Positions 13,241 through 22,598 of a stretch of 50,821 nt of DNA are shown here, one piece after another. Below the pieces are notes generated by a model. That model was not told the DNA's origin and made no database searches. It saw only the letters and a list, made by a program, of their open reading frames with translations. Origin of the DNA: a virus; the IMG/VR virus record IMGVR_UViG_3300026551_000004, positions 1 through 50,821 of that record; one strand, given 5' to 3'. The translations under genes were made by a program, and so were the position numbers. Numbering within the stretch: the stretch's first letter is position 1; every line of letters starts with the position of its first letter.

Positions 13241-13408
13241 ATGAAAACATATCAATTTGAATTTGAATATATGGTACCAGAGTTTGCTACTGTGACTGTG
13301 GAAACCAAAGATGATATTAATACAGCCAAGACTTTGGCTATGGCAGAATTTACCCGGATGTATCCAGAAGCAATTGATCCGGAGATTGTTAGTACTACCA
13401 GTGACTGA
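13241..13408 (+). CDS. small hypothetical protein
   Basis: 55 residues, ATG 13241 two bases after the polymerase stop. Beta-like N-terminus (YQFEFEYMVPEFATVTVET) then a helix; acidic. It ends in TGA overlapping the region of the GTG start of the SSB gene (13401). Not recognised; position suggests a replication accessory protein. Confidence 0.6.
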   Translation: MKTYQFEFEYMVPEFATVTVETKDDINTAKTLAMAEFTRMYPEAIDPEIVSTTSD

Positions 13409-13883
13409 ATACGTTTATTTAAGTGGTAAGTGTAAGTGGTGTAAGGCCATTACACCTAATCAATTCGGAGACTGGAGGACTGATCTTTATCCTGACGACA
13501 AGTCTTTAACAAAGATCATGGAACTTAAAGCGAGAGGACTTAAGAATACGCTAAAGAAAGATGACGATGGACCATGCATGTCTTTCAAACGTCCCATGAC
13601 AAAGATGATGAAAGGCAGAGCAGTTAACTTTACAAACCCTGTTGTGGTTAACAGTGCTGGAACGCCTATTAATGAAGCAATAGGCAATGGTTCAGAAGTT
13701 ACAATTAAACTCTTGATTTATCCATTTAGAACTCCCAACGGTGCCAGTGGTATCGGTGCCAGATGGGAGTCAGTAAGAGTTGATAACTTAGTTCCTTGGG
13801 AATTGAAAGACTTTGCGAGTCCAGAGGAAAGAGAAGCTATCTTTGGACTTAAGGAAGCACCTAAAGGTGAATATAACTTCTAA
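13401..13883 (+). CDS. gp2.5-like single-stranded DNA-binding protein
   Basis: 160 residues from GTG 13401; the frame is open further upstream (13311), but only this start begins with the expected short N-terminus TEYVYLSGKCKW. The OB-fold signature is the segment GNGSEVTIKLLIYPF followed by GIGARWESVRVDNLVPWEL, common to T7-like phage SSBs, and it lies next to the polymerase. The C-terminus ends GEYNF with few acidic residues in the last ten, unlike the acidic aromatic tail of T7 gp2.5. It would coat ssDNA at the fork. Translation is coupled to the 13241 gene. Confidence 0.8.
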   Translation: MTEYVYLSGKCKWCKAITPNQFGDWRTDLYPDDKSLTKIMELKARGLKNTLKKDDDGPCMSFKRPMTKMMKGRAVNFTNPVVVNSAGTPINEAIGNGSEVTIKLLIYPFRTPNGASGIGARWESVRVDNLVPWELKDFASPEEREAIFGLKEAPKGEYNF

Positions 13884-14529: not shown

Positions 14530-14808
14530 ATGTCTTTTAAAGATTATCTCACCGATGGTGAGTGGGATGATTTTATGTTTGACGAAGAAGAGGAGAATAC
14601 TATGACTATTGATTTCACGAAACCCGTTTACCTCGTTGCTTGCCAGGACTCTAGCGCCTTGTTCAATGATCTTGACGGGGCAATCAAGAAGGCAGCAACA
14701 AGCGCGAAAATGGATCGAGACGGTGACGATTATTTCGTCATGCAAGCGATCAAGCGTGTGGCTACGCCACGTCCCGAGGCAACCATTACGGATATGCCTG
14801 TTGCCTAA
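14530..14808 (+). CDS. small protein, paralog 3
   Basis: 92 residues from ATG 14530 (GGAG upstream); an equally good internal start is ATG 14602 after AGGAG, giving 68 residues that match the length of the two preceding paralogs. The first 24 residues are very acidic. The shared core is LDGAIKKAATSAK followed by DDYFVMQAIKRVA. The stop TAA lies inside the first hairpin of the structured RNA at 14803-14919. Confidence 0.6.
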   Translation: MSFKDYLTDGEWDDFMFDEEEENTMTIDFTKPVYLVACQDSSALFNDLDGAIKKAATSAKMDRDGDDYFVMQAIKRVATPRPEATITDMPVA

Positions 14809-14919
14809 CTACTCATCTAGTTAGGTATCTCCTGCCAGTAACAAAGAACCTGGTAGAGCCCGCGGTCAAAGGTTCTAATACCAATGTGCGCGGCGGGCAT
14901 AGTTCATTAATAGTTAGGC
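14803..14919 (+). ncRNA. compact structured RNA between genes
   Basis: GCCTAACTA (14803-14811) can pair perfectly with TAGTTAGGC (14911-14919), enclosing about 100 bases; its last eight bases can alternatively pair with TAGTTAGG (14818-14825). Inside are TGCCAG/CTGGTA (14834-14839 with 14850-14855) and GCCCGC/GCGGGC (14858-14863 with 14893-14898); AGAACCT/AGGTTCT (14845-14851 with 14870-14876) could interleave with the latter as a pseudoknot. Two mutually exclusive outer helices suggest a switch-like element or a processed small RNA. Confidence 0.5.
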
Positions 14920-14946
14920 AATTTGCCCTCACTTGGAGTAAAGATC

Positions 14947-15189
14947 ATGTCTATCTTTCGCACAACACACATATACAATTCCGATAAGATAGAAAAGTAT
15001 CATCCCTCCAAGGAAGAGGCGGTGACTTTCTTGACTATCAAAGCTTTCGAAGATTTTCTAGGACGCATACCTACCAAAGGAATGAACTTAGAAAAAAGAG
15101 CTGATACTGCAAGACAACTTCTTCCTGCTCTTTTAGACCGACTTGAAGAAATTGAGAAACACGTCGAGGAATATAAACCGGTAAAATAG
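14947..15189 (+). CDS. hypothetical helical protein
   Basis: 80 residues, GGAG eight bases before ATG 14947 (frame open from 14923). Helical, charged C-terminal part (LLPALLDRLEEIEKHVEEY). Stop is TAG, and the long non-coding structured stretch begins immediately afterwards. Not recognised. Confidence 0.65.
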   Translation: MSIFRTTHIYNSDKIEKYHPSKEEAVTFLTIKAFEDFLGRIPTKGMNLEKRADTARQLLPALLDRLEEIEKHVEEYKPVK

Positions 15190-16750
15190 TTTGTTACTTG
15201 CCACTAGTCGCATATATCACCGGGTGGTAATAAGCTCTAGTAAAGCTGACTAGAGTACCGAGTGCAACTCTGACCTACTGAAGTCCTTTTGTCCATGACT
15301 ACATGATGAGTGCGATACCGCGGGAATAGAAACAGTAGGAAACATTCCCGCCTTGGTAGTAAAACTTCATGTAAGATGCAACTCAGGAACGTGGGTGAGT
15401 GGTGGTAGAGTGGTGATCTACCCTAGTGAGGAGAGACCCAGCGTGTGCACGTAATGTACATCCATATAGGTGTGAAAGCAGACTGAGGCTTCTCAATCCA
15501 TTTAGCTGCAGGATACAAAAAGCAGCAAGACTGGCTACATCAGTACTTGTACTGGTTCGACTCCAGTCCTACTCGACTGACAGGTATCGAGAGTGTGGCG
15601 CAATATGGCAGACGCAACTGATGATGCCACCCGCAACGTCACCTGTGGAGGCTAAAAACGGAGACAATAGGACGTGTACCTCTATGTCCGGTGGCAGACG
15701 ATCAGCCGTCTGAACCACAACGGAGTCCATACCCTAGTGGTCAGACAACATAGAGCGACGTCATCCACGCCTCACGTGGAGTAGCTTTGAATAATCGTCT
15801 CATACGTAACAACCTGAGATGTGTCTCTCGGGCTAGTGTTCCTAGTATAGTATGGGACAAGTAGGATACACACCGCTCTTTGGACGGAGTGTAGGTTCCC
15901 AGATGGTTCGAAGCCATCATGGTGGTAGTGGGACCAGCTAATCCCTCAACGGGAACGCGAAATACCAAATGGTAAAGGAACCGAGGCCAGTCCTAAACGT
16001 CTTCTCTCAGAGTCCCTGGGAAATAAACCGACGTGTAAGCAAATCACATTGACAGAAACGAGACAGTCTTGTGTACCAGGCCACCGCTGAAATAGTGCGG
16101 ACTGGAATAGACAGCAGCAGATTACTGCTTCCTCTATTGTAAGCAAGATACCTCTCAAGGATGTATGCAGGGTGCAACCTGTAGATGCGGACTACCAACC
16201 CGCGTGTGGTAAGGCGAATACTGTTGAAGAGGTGAGGAAGAGTGTGATCCGAAAATAATGGGTTTCTTAGGTGTTACAGCAACGAGCAGAGCGAGTCTGC
16301 TGTTGCTAGACTGTTGAGGCTCCATTAGCTTCTCTGGTCGTCTTCTTTCCCTTTTGAAGGCAGAGGAAGCCGTTAACGATCACCGATGAACAATACCCAC
16401 TCCAAGCAGCAGCTGCTATAGTGCGCAAACTCACATTGACCGTCTTGTCTGGGATGCTAGACAGAATGGTGACGAGCAGTAGAATGTGTAGTCTTAAGTC
16501 CCAGCCGCAAGTTCCCGACTTCTCACACAGTCGCAGACATAAAGCCGCCGGATGCAAGACAACTGAGTACTCGGCCTGACTCGGGCAGGAAAGGTATTCT
16601 ACATAAGTCTCTTGTGAGGTACTCAAGTTCTACTTACCCAGTTCCGGCAGTCAACCGTAAGCTGGACCATCGTAGAGATTGGAGGTGTTGGATGAGGCAT
16701 AAGTATATTACTCCACCTATCCGCCCCCCTTAAGTTCACCAGTATGCCGA
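15190..16750 (+). ncRNA. candidate giant structured non-coding RNA (~1.5 kb)
   Basis: No credible gene in either strand. Composition is less AT-rich than the flanks. Perfect local stems include CTCTAGT/ACTAGAG (15235-15255), GAGT-GCA-ACTC (15260-15270) and GCGGGAAT/ATTCCCGC extended by TACC/GGTA (15316-15358). Others are a 14-bp bulged hairpin (15687-15724), TCCACG/CGTGGA (15764-15780), GGTTCCCA/TGGGACC (15894-15935) and a 12-bp hairpin with one bulged G (16278-16307). Two hairpins are perfect tRNA T-arms: ACTGG-TTCGACT-CCAGT (15551-15567) and GATGG-TTCGAAG-CCATC (15902-15918). The ends can pair: GGTGGTAATA (15223-15232) with TATTA-CT-CCACC (16706-16717). Size and phage setting recall GOLLD and ROOL RNAs, but I cannot assign a family. 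Confidence 0.65.
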
Positions 16751-16765
16751 GAAGAGGAGGTTAAC

Positions 16766-17038
16766 ATGTTCGGCTATCCAATTTATCAACAGTCACAACC
16801 ACAGAAATCAATTAAAGAACAGATAGATGAATTAGAACTTCTATCTGAATTTCTGAAGAAGAAATATGAAAAGAAAGATGATAAAGGATCACCTAAGTTG
16901 AAAGATAAGAAGTTCTCCATATGGGAGGGAGGTTTAATTCTCTGGGTATTTAGCTTTACTTGTGCTGTTCCTATAGTTGGACTTCAACTGAGCAGTATCT
17001 ACAATCTATTTCAAACTATGAATAGGATGTTTAAATGA
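16766..17038 (+). CDS. small membrane protein with coiled coil
   Basis: 90 residues, GAGGAGG before ATG 16766. An N-terminal charged helix (KEQIDELELLSEFLKKKYEKK) is followed by one transmembrane segment around residues 53-75 (GGLILWVFSFTCAVPIVGL) and a short tail. Its stop overlaps the MazG-like ATG (ATGA at 17035). First gene after the structured RNA. Function unknown. Confidence 0.65.
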   Translation: MFGYPIYQQSQPQKSIKEQIDELELLSEFLKKKYEKKDDKGSPKLKDKKFSIWEGGLILWVFSFTCAVPIVGLQLSSIYNLFQTMNRMFK

Positions 17039-17286
17039 AAAGACCAGAATTAAGACCCCATCATTTTGATGGGAAAGTTTCCAAAGTAGTTGAAGAATGC
17101 GGAGAAGTATTGCAGGAAATAGGTAAACTTCAGAGACACGGAGCCTTTGCAACTGATCCATCTGACTCAACTAAACACTATGATAACATTTCTCCCTTGA
17201 AAGCAGAGCTTCTTGATTTGCAAGATGCAATAGAACAATTACTTATTGAGCGAATATTTGAAATCAATACACACACTAGTACCTGA
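17035..17286 (+). CDS. MazG-like nucleotide pyrophosphohydrolase
   Basis: 83 residues with the all-alpha NTP-PPase metal-binding pattern: VVEECGEVLQEIGK (EExxE) near residue 20 and ELLDLQDAIEQL (ExxD) near residue 62. The family hydrolyses dNTPs or alarmones to monophosphates; in phages it is thought to adjust nucleotide pools. Short for the family but both motif halves are present. It overlaps the exonuclease gene by about 40 bases. Confidence 0.75.
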   Translation: MKRPELRPHHFDGKVSKVVEECGEVLQEIGKLQRHGAFATDPSDSTKHYDNISPLKAELLDLQDAIEQLLIERIFEINTHTST

Positions 17287-18124
17287 CGTTTACGAACTCT
17301 TACAAACGAAGGGATGGTACAATGAAACTCTACTTTCCTACTTCAGCGCTCAACTCAATACGAGCCTTAAAGCGCAATGGTCAGATAGTGACGGTACACA
17401 TCGCGGACTTAGATTATCTCGAATGGGAGATCAGTGTCCGAGAGCTTTATGGTACAGCATCCACCAGCCAGAACTGGCCGAACCTCTCCCATCTTGGGCT
17501 AATTTTAAATACACGTACGGACACATAATAGAGGCTTTGGCTCTAACCTTAGCTAAGGCCGCAGGCCATCGAGTTGAGGGAGAGCAGGATGAGTTGGTCG
17601 TCGATGGGATTAAAGGTCATCGCGACGCTGTTATTGACGGCTGTCTCGTGGACGTTAAATCTGCTACAAGTTTTAAAGTGGCAGAGAGCAGAAGGGGATC
17701 TTTGGAGAAGAACGATAATTTTGGCTACCTCGATCAGCTTGATGGTTATGTACTTGGATCTGCTAATGATCCTTTGGTTACTGTAAAGGACAAAGGATAT
17801 CTCTGGTTCATCGATAAAACCTTGGGGCACATGCATGTCTACGAACACACCGCGAGACCCGAACGGATACTTCATCGAGTTAACGAATATAAAATCGTTG
17901 TTGAGCGAAGCTCAGAGCCTGCTTGTACGTGCGGAACAAGACCAAGAGGAACATCCGGAAACATCGAACTCGATGTTAGAGCAAGCTATTCACCGTTTAA
18001 ACACAGCTGTTTCCCGCACCTTAGGACTTTCCTCTACTCTGATGGGCCGGTTTATCTTTCTAGAGTTTCAAAGACTCCTGATGTCCCAGAAATTAACAGA
18101 CAAGGAAGAATAGTTTATCACTAA
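17246..18124 (+). CDS. Cas4/RecB-like PD-(D/E)XK exonuclease
   Basis: 292 residues from TTG 17246; the true start is uncertain because no ATG, GTG or good binding site exists in the frame near there. The N-terminal QCPRALWY is the conserved Cys motif of Cas4/AddB-type nucleases. The core is GHRDAVIDGCLVDVKSAT, with Asp and VDVK as catalytic residues, and the C-terminal part has ACTCG and GNIELDVRASYSPFKHSC. In related phage exonucleases the last segment usually carries a CxxC pair before the final Cys; here those positions are Ala and Ser, so the iron-sulphur cluster may be absent. Probable role: degrading host DNA or processing replication ends. Confidence 0.8.
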   Translation: MSEYLKSIHTLVPDVYELLQTKGWYNETLLSYFSAQLNTSLKAQWSDSDGTHRGLRLSRMGDQCPRALWYSIHQPELAEPLPSWANFKYTYGHIIEALALTLAKAAGHRVEGEQDELVVDGIKGHRDAVIDGCLVDVKSATSFKVAESRRGSLEKNDNFGYLDQLDGYVLGSANDPLVTVKDKGYLWFIDKTLGHMHVYEHTARPERILHRVNEYKIVVERSSEPACTCGTRPRGTSGNIELDVRASYSPFKHSCFPHLRTFLYSDGPVYLSRVSKTPDVPEINRQGRIVYH

Positions 18125-20930: not shown

Positions 20931-22598
20931 TTATTTTGAAGGCTTTAATTTACCTTGTAGCATTTTAAGATAATCATCTTCTCTAATAGTCTTACCTTCA
21001 GCACGCATTGTATTAATCTTGTATTCATGTATTCTTCTCTGAAGATCTTCGACAAATGCTTTTTCTTTCTCTAGAGTCTGTTCCATTTCTTCTTTGAACC
21101 AGTCAGGTAAATCTTCCTTACCATATTTATTAAGACCTAAATTTTCCATTTGCCATCTTATCGCTGCTCTAGAAATGCCTAGTTCTTTAGCAATATTACT
21201 AATAGATTTACCAGATTCTAAGCCTTCTTTAATAGCTTTATCAAACAATCCTTTTACCACCCCTTTAGCAACTCGGGCCATACCTAATTCACCAGTCCCT
21301 ATAATATCCTCTGGCTTAACATCTCTGAGAATCTCTTTAAGCTTAGAACCTTCTATCTGATGTTTCTTAGCCAAATCTTCAATTGTCTTATCAGATATAG
21401 GAGAATAAGTATTATCTCTATCTTCGGGATTAAACGGTAATGTCTGGAACTTAGGTTGTTCAAATCTTGGATCATAAGCATCGAATGTTTGTTGTAATTT
21501 ACGGGGAGGAAGTCCGTGTTTCCACCAACCTAAAGGTTCTTTACCAGTGTCACCACGTCCTTCGGTCTCACCTGCATTTAAAGGTAAACCTGGTTTCCAC
21601 CAACCACCGTATCTATCATCAAAACTACTAGGTTTAAGAATAGTAGCATCAGGTTGGAACTGAACAGTACGTACTGTACCTGGTTCTGTTTCTTCCTTAA
21701 CTACCTCATTGTAATCAATATCAGGATTATCTTGACCAGTCTTCTCCCAACCTTTAAGAGTAGCTTCTACTCTATTATGAGTGAGAATAGCTAGGTTCTT
21801 GTCTTTATTATTTAATATAGCATCTCTAATACCAGCAAAAGATCTACCTTTAAAATCATTAAAGCTTTCACCGCCTGGAACAGGTTCATCCTGCTTGTTC
21901 TGGGCGTATTCTTTTAATACTGGATTAGAAGTAGAACAAGGTTTACCTGCGTGTTCACCTACATTCCACGTACGTAACCTAGGATCATACTGTGGAACAA
22001 TACCTAATTTCTTCCCTATGATCTCAGCAGTCTCCTTGGAGCGCTGTAAATCAGAAGCCACTAGTGTATCTACCCCTTTTGATTTTAACTCATCAGCGGC
22101 CTTCTCAGCCTCTTGGCGACCCCTTTCATTTAGAGACACAGGTTCCCAACCACGTACAGTATTATCTGCATTCTCTGTAGTTTCACCATGACGTACAATG
22201 TGTACATTTTTAGGTTCATCTAACTGACCTACTTCAGGAGGTTTAGTATTCTGTCTTTTTGTTTTATAACCAACACCTCCACCTTGTAATCCTTTAATCT
22301 CATACCAATCTTGTAACTCTTCTTTTTGAGAAGGATATAATTTATCATGCCATTGTTGAGATTCTGGACTACCAGCTTTATAAGGGTTTATATAATCAAA
22401 CTCATCTTCTTTACCTTCAGTATCGATACCTTTTAGACCAGCCATACGAGTATCTTGCTGGTCTTCACCGGCATTCATATGAGGCGTAATAGTTAACTTA
22501 AGTGGTTCTTTCTTTTGCGACGGATCAGCAACCATAGGTATACCTAATGCATGGTGCATTTCATCTTCATAAGAATTATCTGGTGTACCTATAACCAT
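20931..22598 (-). CDS. virion-region protein with histidine-phosphatase and HTH-like segments
   Basis: 555 residues, last gene of the late operon. Residues about 130-320 form a histidine phosphatase (PGAM-like) domain: IVRHGE at 134-139 with the phospho-acceptor His, SDLQRSKETAE with the second Arg near 186, GGES near 242 and ILTHNRV with the second His at 274. The N-terminal 120 residues are charged and linker-like; two similar GWWKPGLPL/GWWKHGLPP segments follow the domain. Near residue 465, ISNIAKELGISRAAIRWQM looks like a helix-turn-helix, then a long charged helix. A phosphatase inside a structural operon suggests delivery into the host or late metabolic action; this is inference. Confidence 0.75.
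   Translation of the reverse strand: MVIGTPDNSYEDEMHHALGIPMVADPSQKKEPLKLTITPHMNAGEDQQDTRMAGLKGIDTEGKEDEFDYINPYKAGSPESQQWHDKLYPSQKEELQDWYEIKGLQGGGVGYKTKRQNTKPPEVGQLDEPKNVHIVRHGETTENADNTVRGWEPVSLNERGRQEAEKAADELKSKGVDTLVASDLQRSKETAEIIGKKLGIVPQYDPRLRTWNVGEHAGKPCSTSNPVLKEYAQNKQDEPVPGGESFNDFKGRSFAGIRDAILNNKDKNLAILTHNRVEATLKGWEKTGQDNPDIDYNEVVKEETEPGTVRTVQFQPDATILKPSSFDDRYGGWWKPGLPLNAGETEGRGDTGKEPLGWWKHGLPPRKLQQTFDAYDPRFEQPKFQTLPFNPEDRDNTYSPISDKTIEDLAKKHQIEGSKLKEILRDVKPEDIIGTGELGMARVAKGVVKGLFDKAIKEGLESGKSISNIAKELGISRAAIRWQMENLGLNKYGKEDLPDWFKEEMEQTLEKEKAFVEDLQRRIHEYKINTMRAEGKTIREDDYLKMLQGKLKPSK

Follow-up and report, generated by a model that had tools for sequence, protein, structure and literature searches.

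The genome of an uncultured phage contains, at positions 15190–16765, a long stretch without recognizable genes, which raises the question of what it encodes. The stretch lies in a 50.8-kb virus contig from IMG/VR, which in its full length of 50,821 nucleotides forms the window analyzed here. The original prediction, made from the nucleotide sequence alone, was that the stretch is one giant structured RNA, either new or a divergent member of the GOLLD or ROOL families. To our knowledge, apart from those of the ribosome, very few RNAs longer than 1 kb have an elaborate conserved structure.

A Long Gene-poor Interval Marks a Clade of Related Phages

The + strand of the record encodes a T7-like PolA, a Gp2.5-like single-stranded DNA-binding protein (SSB), and a Cas4-like exonuclease, and the − strand carries the structural genes and the terminase. 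The cultured kin belong to the Zobellviridae and include Celeribacter phage P12053L, Lentibacter phages ICBM1-3, and Roseobacter phage SIO1, with terminase identities of 56–60%. Two genes delimit the interval. The 5′ landmark is the gene for the Gp2.5-like protein (13395–13883, + strand; phrog_112, E 5e-7), which flanks the interval in all complete relatives, and the 3′ landmark is the exonuclease gene (17246–18124, + strand).

Relatives were gathered by PolA and exonuclease scans of IMG/VR. The distance between the SSB-like and exonuclease genes is bimodal, measuring 15–906 nt in more distant relatives and 1785–4182 nt in the clade of the window. A long gene-poor interval (1.8–4.2 kb) is present at the same place in 78 related IMG/VR phages, the number reached after a second scan; a few are cut by contig ends, and 77 are complete. 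In a tree of the exonuclease, 76 long-interval rows make up one side of a single branch with a support of 100/100. The sister phages, among them the cultured Zobellviridae, have 0–0.9 kb between the two genes, and in five cultured kin the place of the RNA is empty or nearly so. Two homologues, L002 and L003, show about 75% identity to the stretch, with indels; L002 aligns along the full length of the RNA and L003 only as far as its contig reaches. Most members from different subfamilies have diverged beyond the reach of blastn, and a DNA similarity search of INPHARED with the stretch gave no match.

Covariation Supports a New Giant Structured RNA

The predicted shift in base composition is present, with a GC content of 0.48–0.515 over positions 15200–16799 compared with 0.35–0.47 in the flanks. 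The longest open reading frames in the stretch are 95 amino acids on the + strand and 106 on the − strand. A coding role for the whole stretch was rejected, as the longer frames are conserved no further than the nucleotide similarity of the closest relative. The earlier statement that there is no credible open reading frame therefore holds for the long frames and fails for one conserved ORF of 13 codons at the 3′ end (16692–16733). A conserved protein-coding pattern across relatives, which had been named as evidence against an RNA, is confined to this mini-ORF. The mini-ORF belongs to the element itself and gives no reason to abandon the RNA.

Covariation was assessed with RNAalifold on an alignment of the window, L002, and L003, in comparison with column-shuffled alignments. 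The stem-loops proposed from the single sequence proved real, with 66 double-compensated cells against 21 ± 5.7 in the shuffled alignments, and RNAalifold window energies were as low as z = −5 relative to the shuffles. An excess of compensatory changes is seen in eight subfamilies, that of the window and seven more, each tested on its own. The counts are 167 versus 37 for the L159 group, 198 versus 57 for the L031 group, 86 versus 25 for the L014 group, 118 versus 56 for the L016 group, and 67 versus 39, 101 versus 67, and 45 versus 27 for the three remaining subfamilies.

Rfam models gave no match in the window at the gathering score, nor any up to E 5 in positions 14800–16800. On the loci of 23 relatives they matched nothing in the interval and only two tRNA genes outside it. 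ARAGORN found no tRNA or tmRNA in the stretch and no ordinary tRNA gene in the intervals of the members. The covariation in eight subfamilies and the lack of an Rfam match together strongly support the prediction of a new giant structured RNA. The proposal of a divergent GOLLD or ROOL member is not supported: there is no match up to E 5, no full tRNA in the interval, a different genomic setting, and a different set of defining parts. It is nearly certain that these phages carry a real and new family of structured RNA built from the parts described below.

In the window, the RNA occupies approximately positions 15190–16740 on the + strand, as judged from the identity to L002 and L003, the compensatory changes, and the occupancy across the clade; its size in the family is about 1.1–1.5 kb. 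The interval is presumably transcribed as one giant RNA, and a search for consensus σ70 promoters showed no excess. The RNA shares its strand with the replication genes, whereas the structural genes are on the opposite one, and the suggestion that it is abundant late or packaged with the virion found no support. The proposed pairing of the two extremes (15223–15232 with 16706–16717) can form, with 10 bp and a 2-nt bulge. Its bases do not vary between the window and L002, so the pairing is neither supported nor refuted, and the partner strand 16706–16717 falls within the mini-ORF. The repeat TCACATTGAC is present, as described, at 16044 and 16431.

Several short hairpins recur. The K motif TCCGGTGGCAGACGATCAG (15687–15705, + strand) shows purine-pyrimidine covariation, with GAC/GUC in some cases and GGC/GCC in others. 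A pattern search located it in 14 IMG/VR contigs, and a stricter form of it in none of 84,980 prokaryote genomes. The H hairpin (TGCAGG GTGCAA CCTGTA; 16166–16183, + strand) carries a GUGNAA hexaloop motif and is present in L014 and L017 as well. The commonest 6-nt loops in the clade are GTGCAA and GTGAAA, with 15 members each. A second module is seen in six members (L159, L170, L138, L133, L179, and L164), where a GUGNAA hairpin is followed directly by a T-arm and then by AGUAGGA..GAUAAAAGCGAGA.

The RNA Contains T-arms and, in a Subset of Members, a Permuted tRNA Fold

Word counts across the intervals revealed GGTTCGA in 31 of the first 41. The sites of this word are textbook T-arms, in which the stem sequences vary freely yet always pair, mostly over 5 bp, and enclose UUCRANY loops. 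Over all 78 members, 108 T-arms lie on the RNA strand and none on the opposite strand. The first 41 intervals contain 55 on the RNA strand, none on the other strand, and 0.25 in shuffles, and the sequence outside the interval of these loci contains 6 in 595 kb. The corresponding numbers are 53, 0, and 0.05 in 37 validation intervals, which were fetched only once the motif was known. A T-arm with a UUCRANY loop, a stem of at least 4 bp, and a G53-C61 closing pair is found in 62 of the 78 members. Both T-arm hairpins predicted in the window are real: the first (ACTGG TTCGACT CCAGT; 15551–15567, + strand) has a 5-bp stem and a canonical UUCRANY loop, and the second, T-arm-like hairpin (GATGG TTCGAAG CCATC; 15902–15918, + strand) has a loop that is canonical, TTCAAAT, in L002 and L003.

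Downstream of many T-arms there is a short closed hairpin and then TGGYGNAA..GGYANACRC, a D-arm of the tRNA-Leu type with U8 and GG. In L173 the D-arm is of class I, and lengths are canonical throughout; among the members, L173 and L024 have the most canonical permuted tRNA. The outer strands pair like an anticodon stem, as in L137 (CACTGACA/TGTCAGTG) and L103 (GGTTCTCGTT/GACGAGAACC). Compared with tRNA, the T-arm, acceptor, and D-arm follow one another in circularly permuted order. The module of the window (15538–15623, + strand) begins and ends with the anticodon-stem-like helix (15538–15544/15617–15623; 7 bp, CATCAGT/ACTGATG). Between its strands lie the T-arm, a capped hairpin that replaces the acceptor stem (15572–15575/15588–15591), and the D-arm, GCG CAATATGGCAGA CGC (15598–15615), with a GG dinucleotide as G18G19 of tRNA.

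The module is supported by covariation, by a covariance model termed R1, and by permutations of the outer helix. When 16 members were aligned, 92.7% of cells in the three inner helices were paired, and all 3 pairs of the D-stem held in 16 of 16 members. The same alignment gives a covariation score of 0.554 for the module; shuffling lowers it to 0.164, and slid versions do not exceed 0.157. The outer helix has a mean of 5.4 Watson-Crick pairs against 4.4, and none of 20000 flank permutations reached 5.4. The R1 model matches window positions 15550–15616 at 56.8 bits, the window being one of its seed sequences. R1 matches about 28 of the 78 members at E < 1e-4. Among members outside the seed, 13 are matched at E < 1e-3. 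All these matches lie on the RNA strand. The complete permuted module is recognizable in these roughly 28 members only. The minimum-energy fold of the window-L002 alignment did not pick the cloverleaf; the permuted cloverleaf rests on the comparison of members and not on energy folding.

In the sister set, three R1 matches fall below E 1e-3, each of them a junction from T-arm to D-arm that lies at a real tRNA gene or between two such genes. Since R1 matches tandem real tRNA genes of sister phages, the arms are tRNA-like in sequence, and such genes are the one source of false R1 matches. Two sister phages without the RNA have a tRNA-Trp gene or a doubtful tRNA between the SSB and exonuclease genes (L037, 12813–12888; L042, 12911–12985), at the site taken by the RNA in the other clade. 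Five members (L003, L009, L033, L034, and L175) have insertions in the D-loop of the module, some of them hairpins. A recurrent hairpin loop, GUAUCCUAGAA, occurs in the RNA interval of L103, L168, L009, L106, and L175; depending on the member, it takes the position of the variable arm or lies in the acceptor hairpin.

An Invariant Pro-Pro-stop Mini-ORF Lies at the 3′ End of the RNA

The conserved ORF of the window encodes MRHKYITPPIRPP followed by a stop codon (16692–16733, + strand) and is preceded by the Shine-Dalgarno sequence GGAGG (16681–16685), at a spacing that is mostly 6–10 nt across the members. All 77 complete members have a Shine-Dalgarno-led ORF of 11–33 codons that ends with Pro-Pro-stop near the 3′ end of the RNA. 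The sole interval of the 78 without it is that of L003, whose sequence ends before that point. For comparison, the whole set yielded 1.3 of these ORFs when shuffled and 1 on the opposite strand, 594 kb of sequence elsewhere in the loci contained 4, and none was present in 29 sister intervals. Among Shine-Dalgarno-led mini-ORFs starting with ATG, the final dipeptide is Pro-Pro in 69 members and the next commonest dipeptide occurs in 4. The stop codon is TAA in 76 of 77. The lengths of the mini-ORFs have two peaks, at 12–14 and 20–25 codons, with few between.

All four bases occur at the wobble position of the first proline codon; in 67 members the second proline codon is CCT. Between subfamilies only the Pro-Pro-stop is kept, usually preceded by Arg or Gln, and the frequent 3′ word CCACCTTAAG is the end of the mini-ORF. 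Single-base codon changes within subfamilies comprise 129 synonymous and 102 nonsynonymous ones, compared with a neutral expectation of 57 and 174, and the mini-ORF is therefore under purifying selection as a coding sequence. A role of CCNCCTTAA as an anti-Shine-Dalgarno element was rejected, as any base (T, A, C, or G) can occupy the wobble position of the first proline codon, with no relation to GGNGG motifs nearby. The stop codon is followed by a hairpin with a mean minimum free energy of −13.6 kcal/mol compared with −8.1 kcal/mol in shuffles.

In E. coli, a C-terminal Pro-Pro before the stop codon leads to failed termination, cleavage at the stop codon, and ssrA tagging (PMC3834316). In YbeL-PP of E. 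coli, the dipeptide before the stop codon blocks termination (PMC3834316); in the present family, by contrast, Pro-Pro-stop is all that stays constant in a very short ORF at the end of a structured RNA. Bacterial proteins are depleted in Pro-Pro-stop, with an odds ratio of 0.44 (PMC7246954), and CCU is among the slower codons in diproline synthesis (PMC8129111). Stalling was measured in E. coli, and the effect may be species-specific (PMC7246954); ribosomes may stall at the Pro-Pro-stop in the real host as well.

A Gene for a Small Transmembrane Protein Follows the Mini-ORF

In at least 72 of the 77 members, the mini-ORF is followed, at a median distance of 64 nt, by a gene for a protein of 72–132 residues with a middle part rich in Lys and Glu and a single C-terminal transmembrane (TM) segment, which often contains P-[IFLV]-x-G. 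In the window this gene (16766–17038, + strand) encodes 90 residues, with a P-x-x-G motif in the TM segment. The protein has no PHROG match.

Comparison with Known RNAs

The RNA is not GOLLD, ROOL, OLE, or tmRNA; it is a previously undescribed RNA from uncultured phages. No description of the family was found in the literature, in a search that covered mainly journal papers with free access.

GOLLD is a giant RNA of phages and prophages and is often over 800 nt in length. The present RNA resembles GOLLD in being a very large structured phage RNA with a connection to tRNA, which for GOLLD consists of a location near tRNA islands and of tRNAs that sometimes lie in the GOLLD linker. In contrast to GOLLD, it is longer, shows no covariance-model match, has a permuted tRNA fold built into it where GOLLD is associated with whole tRNAs, and has the Pro-Pro-stop mini-ORF and an adjacent TM gene. 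ROOL is likewise a large phage or prophage RNA of complex structure with many loop contacts (PMC12286853). It differs in its length of about 660 nt and in the absence of a model match, and a translated mini-ORF is not mentioned for ROOL in PMC12286853. The new family thus offers three testable handles that GOLLD and ROOL lack, namely an invariant arrest mini-ORF, a natural permuted tRNA fold, and a constant protein neighbor, and it makes the function of a giant phage RNA directly testable at the ribosome.

The OLE RNA gene colocalizes with the gene for OapA, a TM protein that binds OLE and brings it to the membrane (PMC12054373). OLE is also a large structured RNA, and it is linked to translation via bS21 (PMC12054373). 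The small TM-protein gene beside the present RNA is a parallel to this arrangement. There is no covariance-model match, OLE comes from Bacillota and measures about 600 nt, and OapA is a 21-kDa protein, whereas the TM protein here is about 10 kDa.

A tRNA-like domain and a short ORF are combined in one RNA in tmRNA as well, and in the permuted tmRNA genes of some bacteria the 3′ tRNA half comes before the 5′ half. Unlike tmRNA, the present RNA has no ARAGORN or Rfam tmRNA match, and its D-arm is canonical. Its acceptor-like stem is closed by short loops (GAAA, AGTT, or GAGCA), with no CCA in the members inspected. Its ORF has its own Shine-Dalgarno sequence and ATG and ends with Pro-Pro, whereas the tmRNA tag ends with LAA. 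Circularly permuted tRNA genes share the placement of the T-arm before the D-arm; their transcripts are circularized and cut so that a standard tRNA is restored (PMC10085705). The module described here, in contrast, is one domain of a large RNA and has no anticodon loop, the anticodon stem leading into the rest of the RNA. The natural circular permutations treated in PMC10085705 do not include a tRNA fold that stays permuted as part of a larger RNA. The module is a natural case of the tRNA fold as a building block within a larger RNA.

Proposed Mechanism and Alternatives

The mini-ORF ends in a known stalling signal, and this points to a parking of ribosomes on the RNA by the phage. The reading that we favor, with a probability of about 0.45, is that the RNA forms a ribosome-parking ribonucleoprotein, possibly associated with the membrane. 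The RNA is a mosaic of folded modules, commonly including one permuted tRNA cloverleaf. During early phage expression, a ribosome would load at the 3′ Shine-Dalgarno sequence, synthesize a peptide of 11–33 residues, and stall at the Pro-Pro-stop. The RNA 5′ of the stalled ribosome might then be held as a ribosome-bound particle, or the 3′ end might be protected or cut there. The tRNA-elbow mimic could be a docking or folding element; the module lies at very variable distances from the mini-ORF, which speaks against a single fixed geometry of docking. The TM protein, whose Lys/Glu-rich segment would face the cytoplasm, may anchor the particle or be co-regulated with it. Attachment of the RNA to the ribosome and to the membrane is predicted. 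The ribosome-binding part of the proposal has a parallel in GOLLD, which binds ribosomes in pull-downs (PMC12286853), and the TM protein has one in the OapA of OLE RNA (PMC12054373).

A bolder version, which we consider possible and on balance doubtful, is that the RNA traps ribosomes at the Pro-Pro-stop and, by means of its tRNA elbow, reprograms or sequesters host translation at the membrane. The RNA might engage the trapped ribosome, for example, at the tRNA exit side. If true, the family would establish a new class of structured RNAs that attach by means of an arrest peptide of their own.

The main rival to a ribosome-parking particle, itself unlikely in our estimate, is a cis-acting leader. 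The structured RNA and the Pro-Pro-stop peptide would then be a very long 5′ region that controls the translation or stability of the TM gene in the manner of arrest-peptide leaders and senses, for example, tRNA-binding proteins or termination capacity. The mini-ORF and the TM gene are nearly always found together at the short distance given above, and they could be a cis-regulatory pair without the need of a trans-acting RNA. Stalling short ORFs before genes for membrane proteins are, moreover, an established layout, as for CliM upstream of yidC (PMC13183943). However, the Shine-Dalgarno sequence of the TM gene is not sequestered, with a mean unpaired value of 0.44 compared with 0.42 at random positions, and it is complementary to the Pro-Pro codons in 0 of 72 cases (permuted mean, 4.2). 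The hairpin after the stop codon lacks a U-run in the members inspected. A leader would also leave 1 kb of conserved fold unexplained, and a conserved structure of more than 1 kb far exceeds the leaders known to us.

An RNA-only assembly, either a nanocage or a homo-oligomer, is quite improbable. The T-, D-, and K/H loops would in that case be intermolecular contacts, and the mini-ORF would serve solely for processing of the 3′ end or for translation coupling. GOLLD and ROOL form such RNA-only cages (PMC12286853), and the scale and the phage setting are similar; the many short conserved loops (K, H, and T) fit tertiary or quaternary contacts. Against this stand the absence of any sequence or Rfam relation to GOLLD and ROOL, the invariance of the mini-ORF, which an assembly leaves unexplained, and the lack of evidence for symmetry. 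Neither a decayed tandem array of tRNA genes nor the chance survival of tRNA pieces in an ordinary gene-poor region is, almost certainly, the explanation: the R1 matches to tandem tRNA genes of the sister clade make a tRNA origin of the module plausible, but T-arms are present without any full tRNA, the acceptor is a closed short hairpin, the outer strands pair, the mini-ORF is under selection, and changes in the stems are compensatory, the covariation on which the idea was rejected.

Other Features of the Window and Its Relatives

A small second gene-free stretch of the window (14809–14950) contains the inverted repeat CCTAACTACTCATCTAGTTAGG and lies upstream of an ORF at 14923–15189. Within the structural gene block, the − strand at 20931–22598 encodes a protein with a histidine-phosphatase-like RHGET...SDLQRSKETAE segment. 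In four relatives (L062, L064, L114, and L115), PolA is 757–785 residues long instead of 644; the extra stretch, at about residues 312–352, resembles an intein or an inserted domain.
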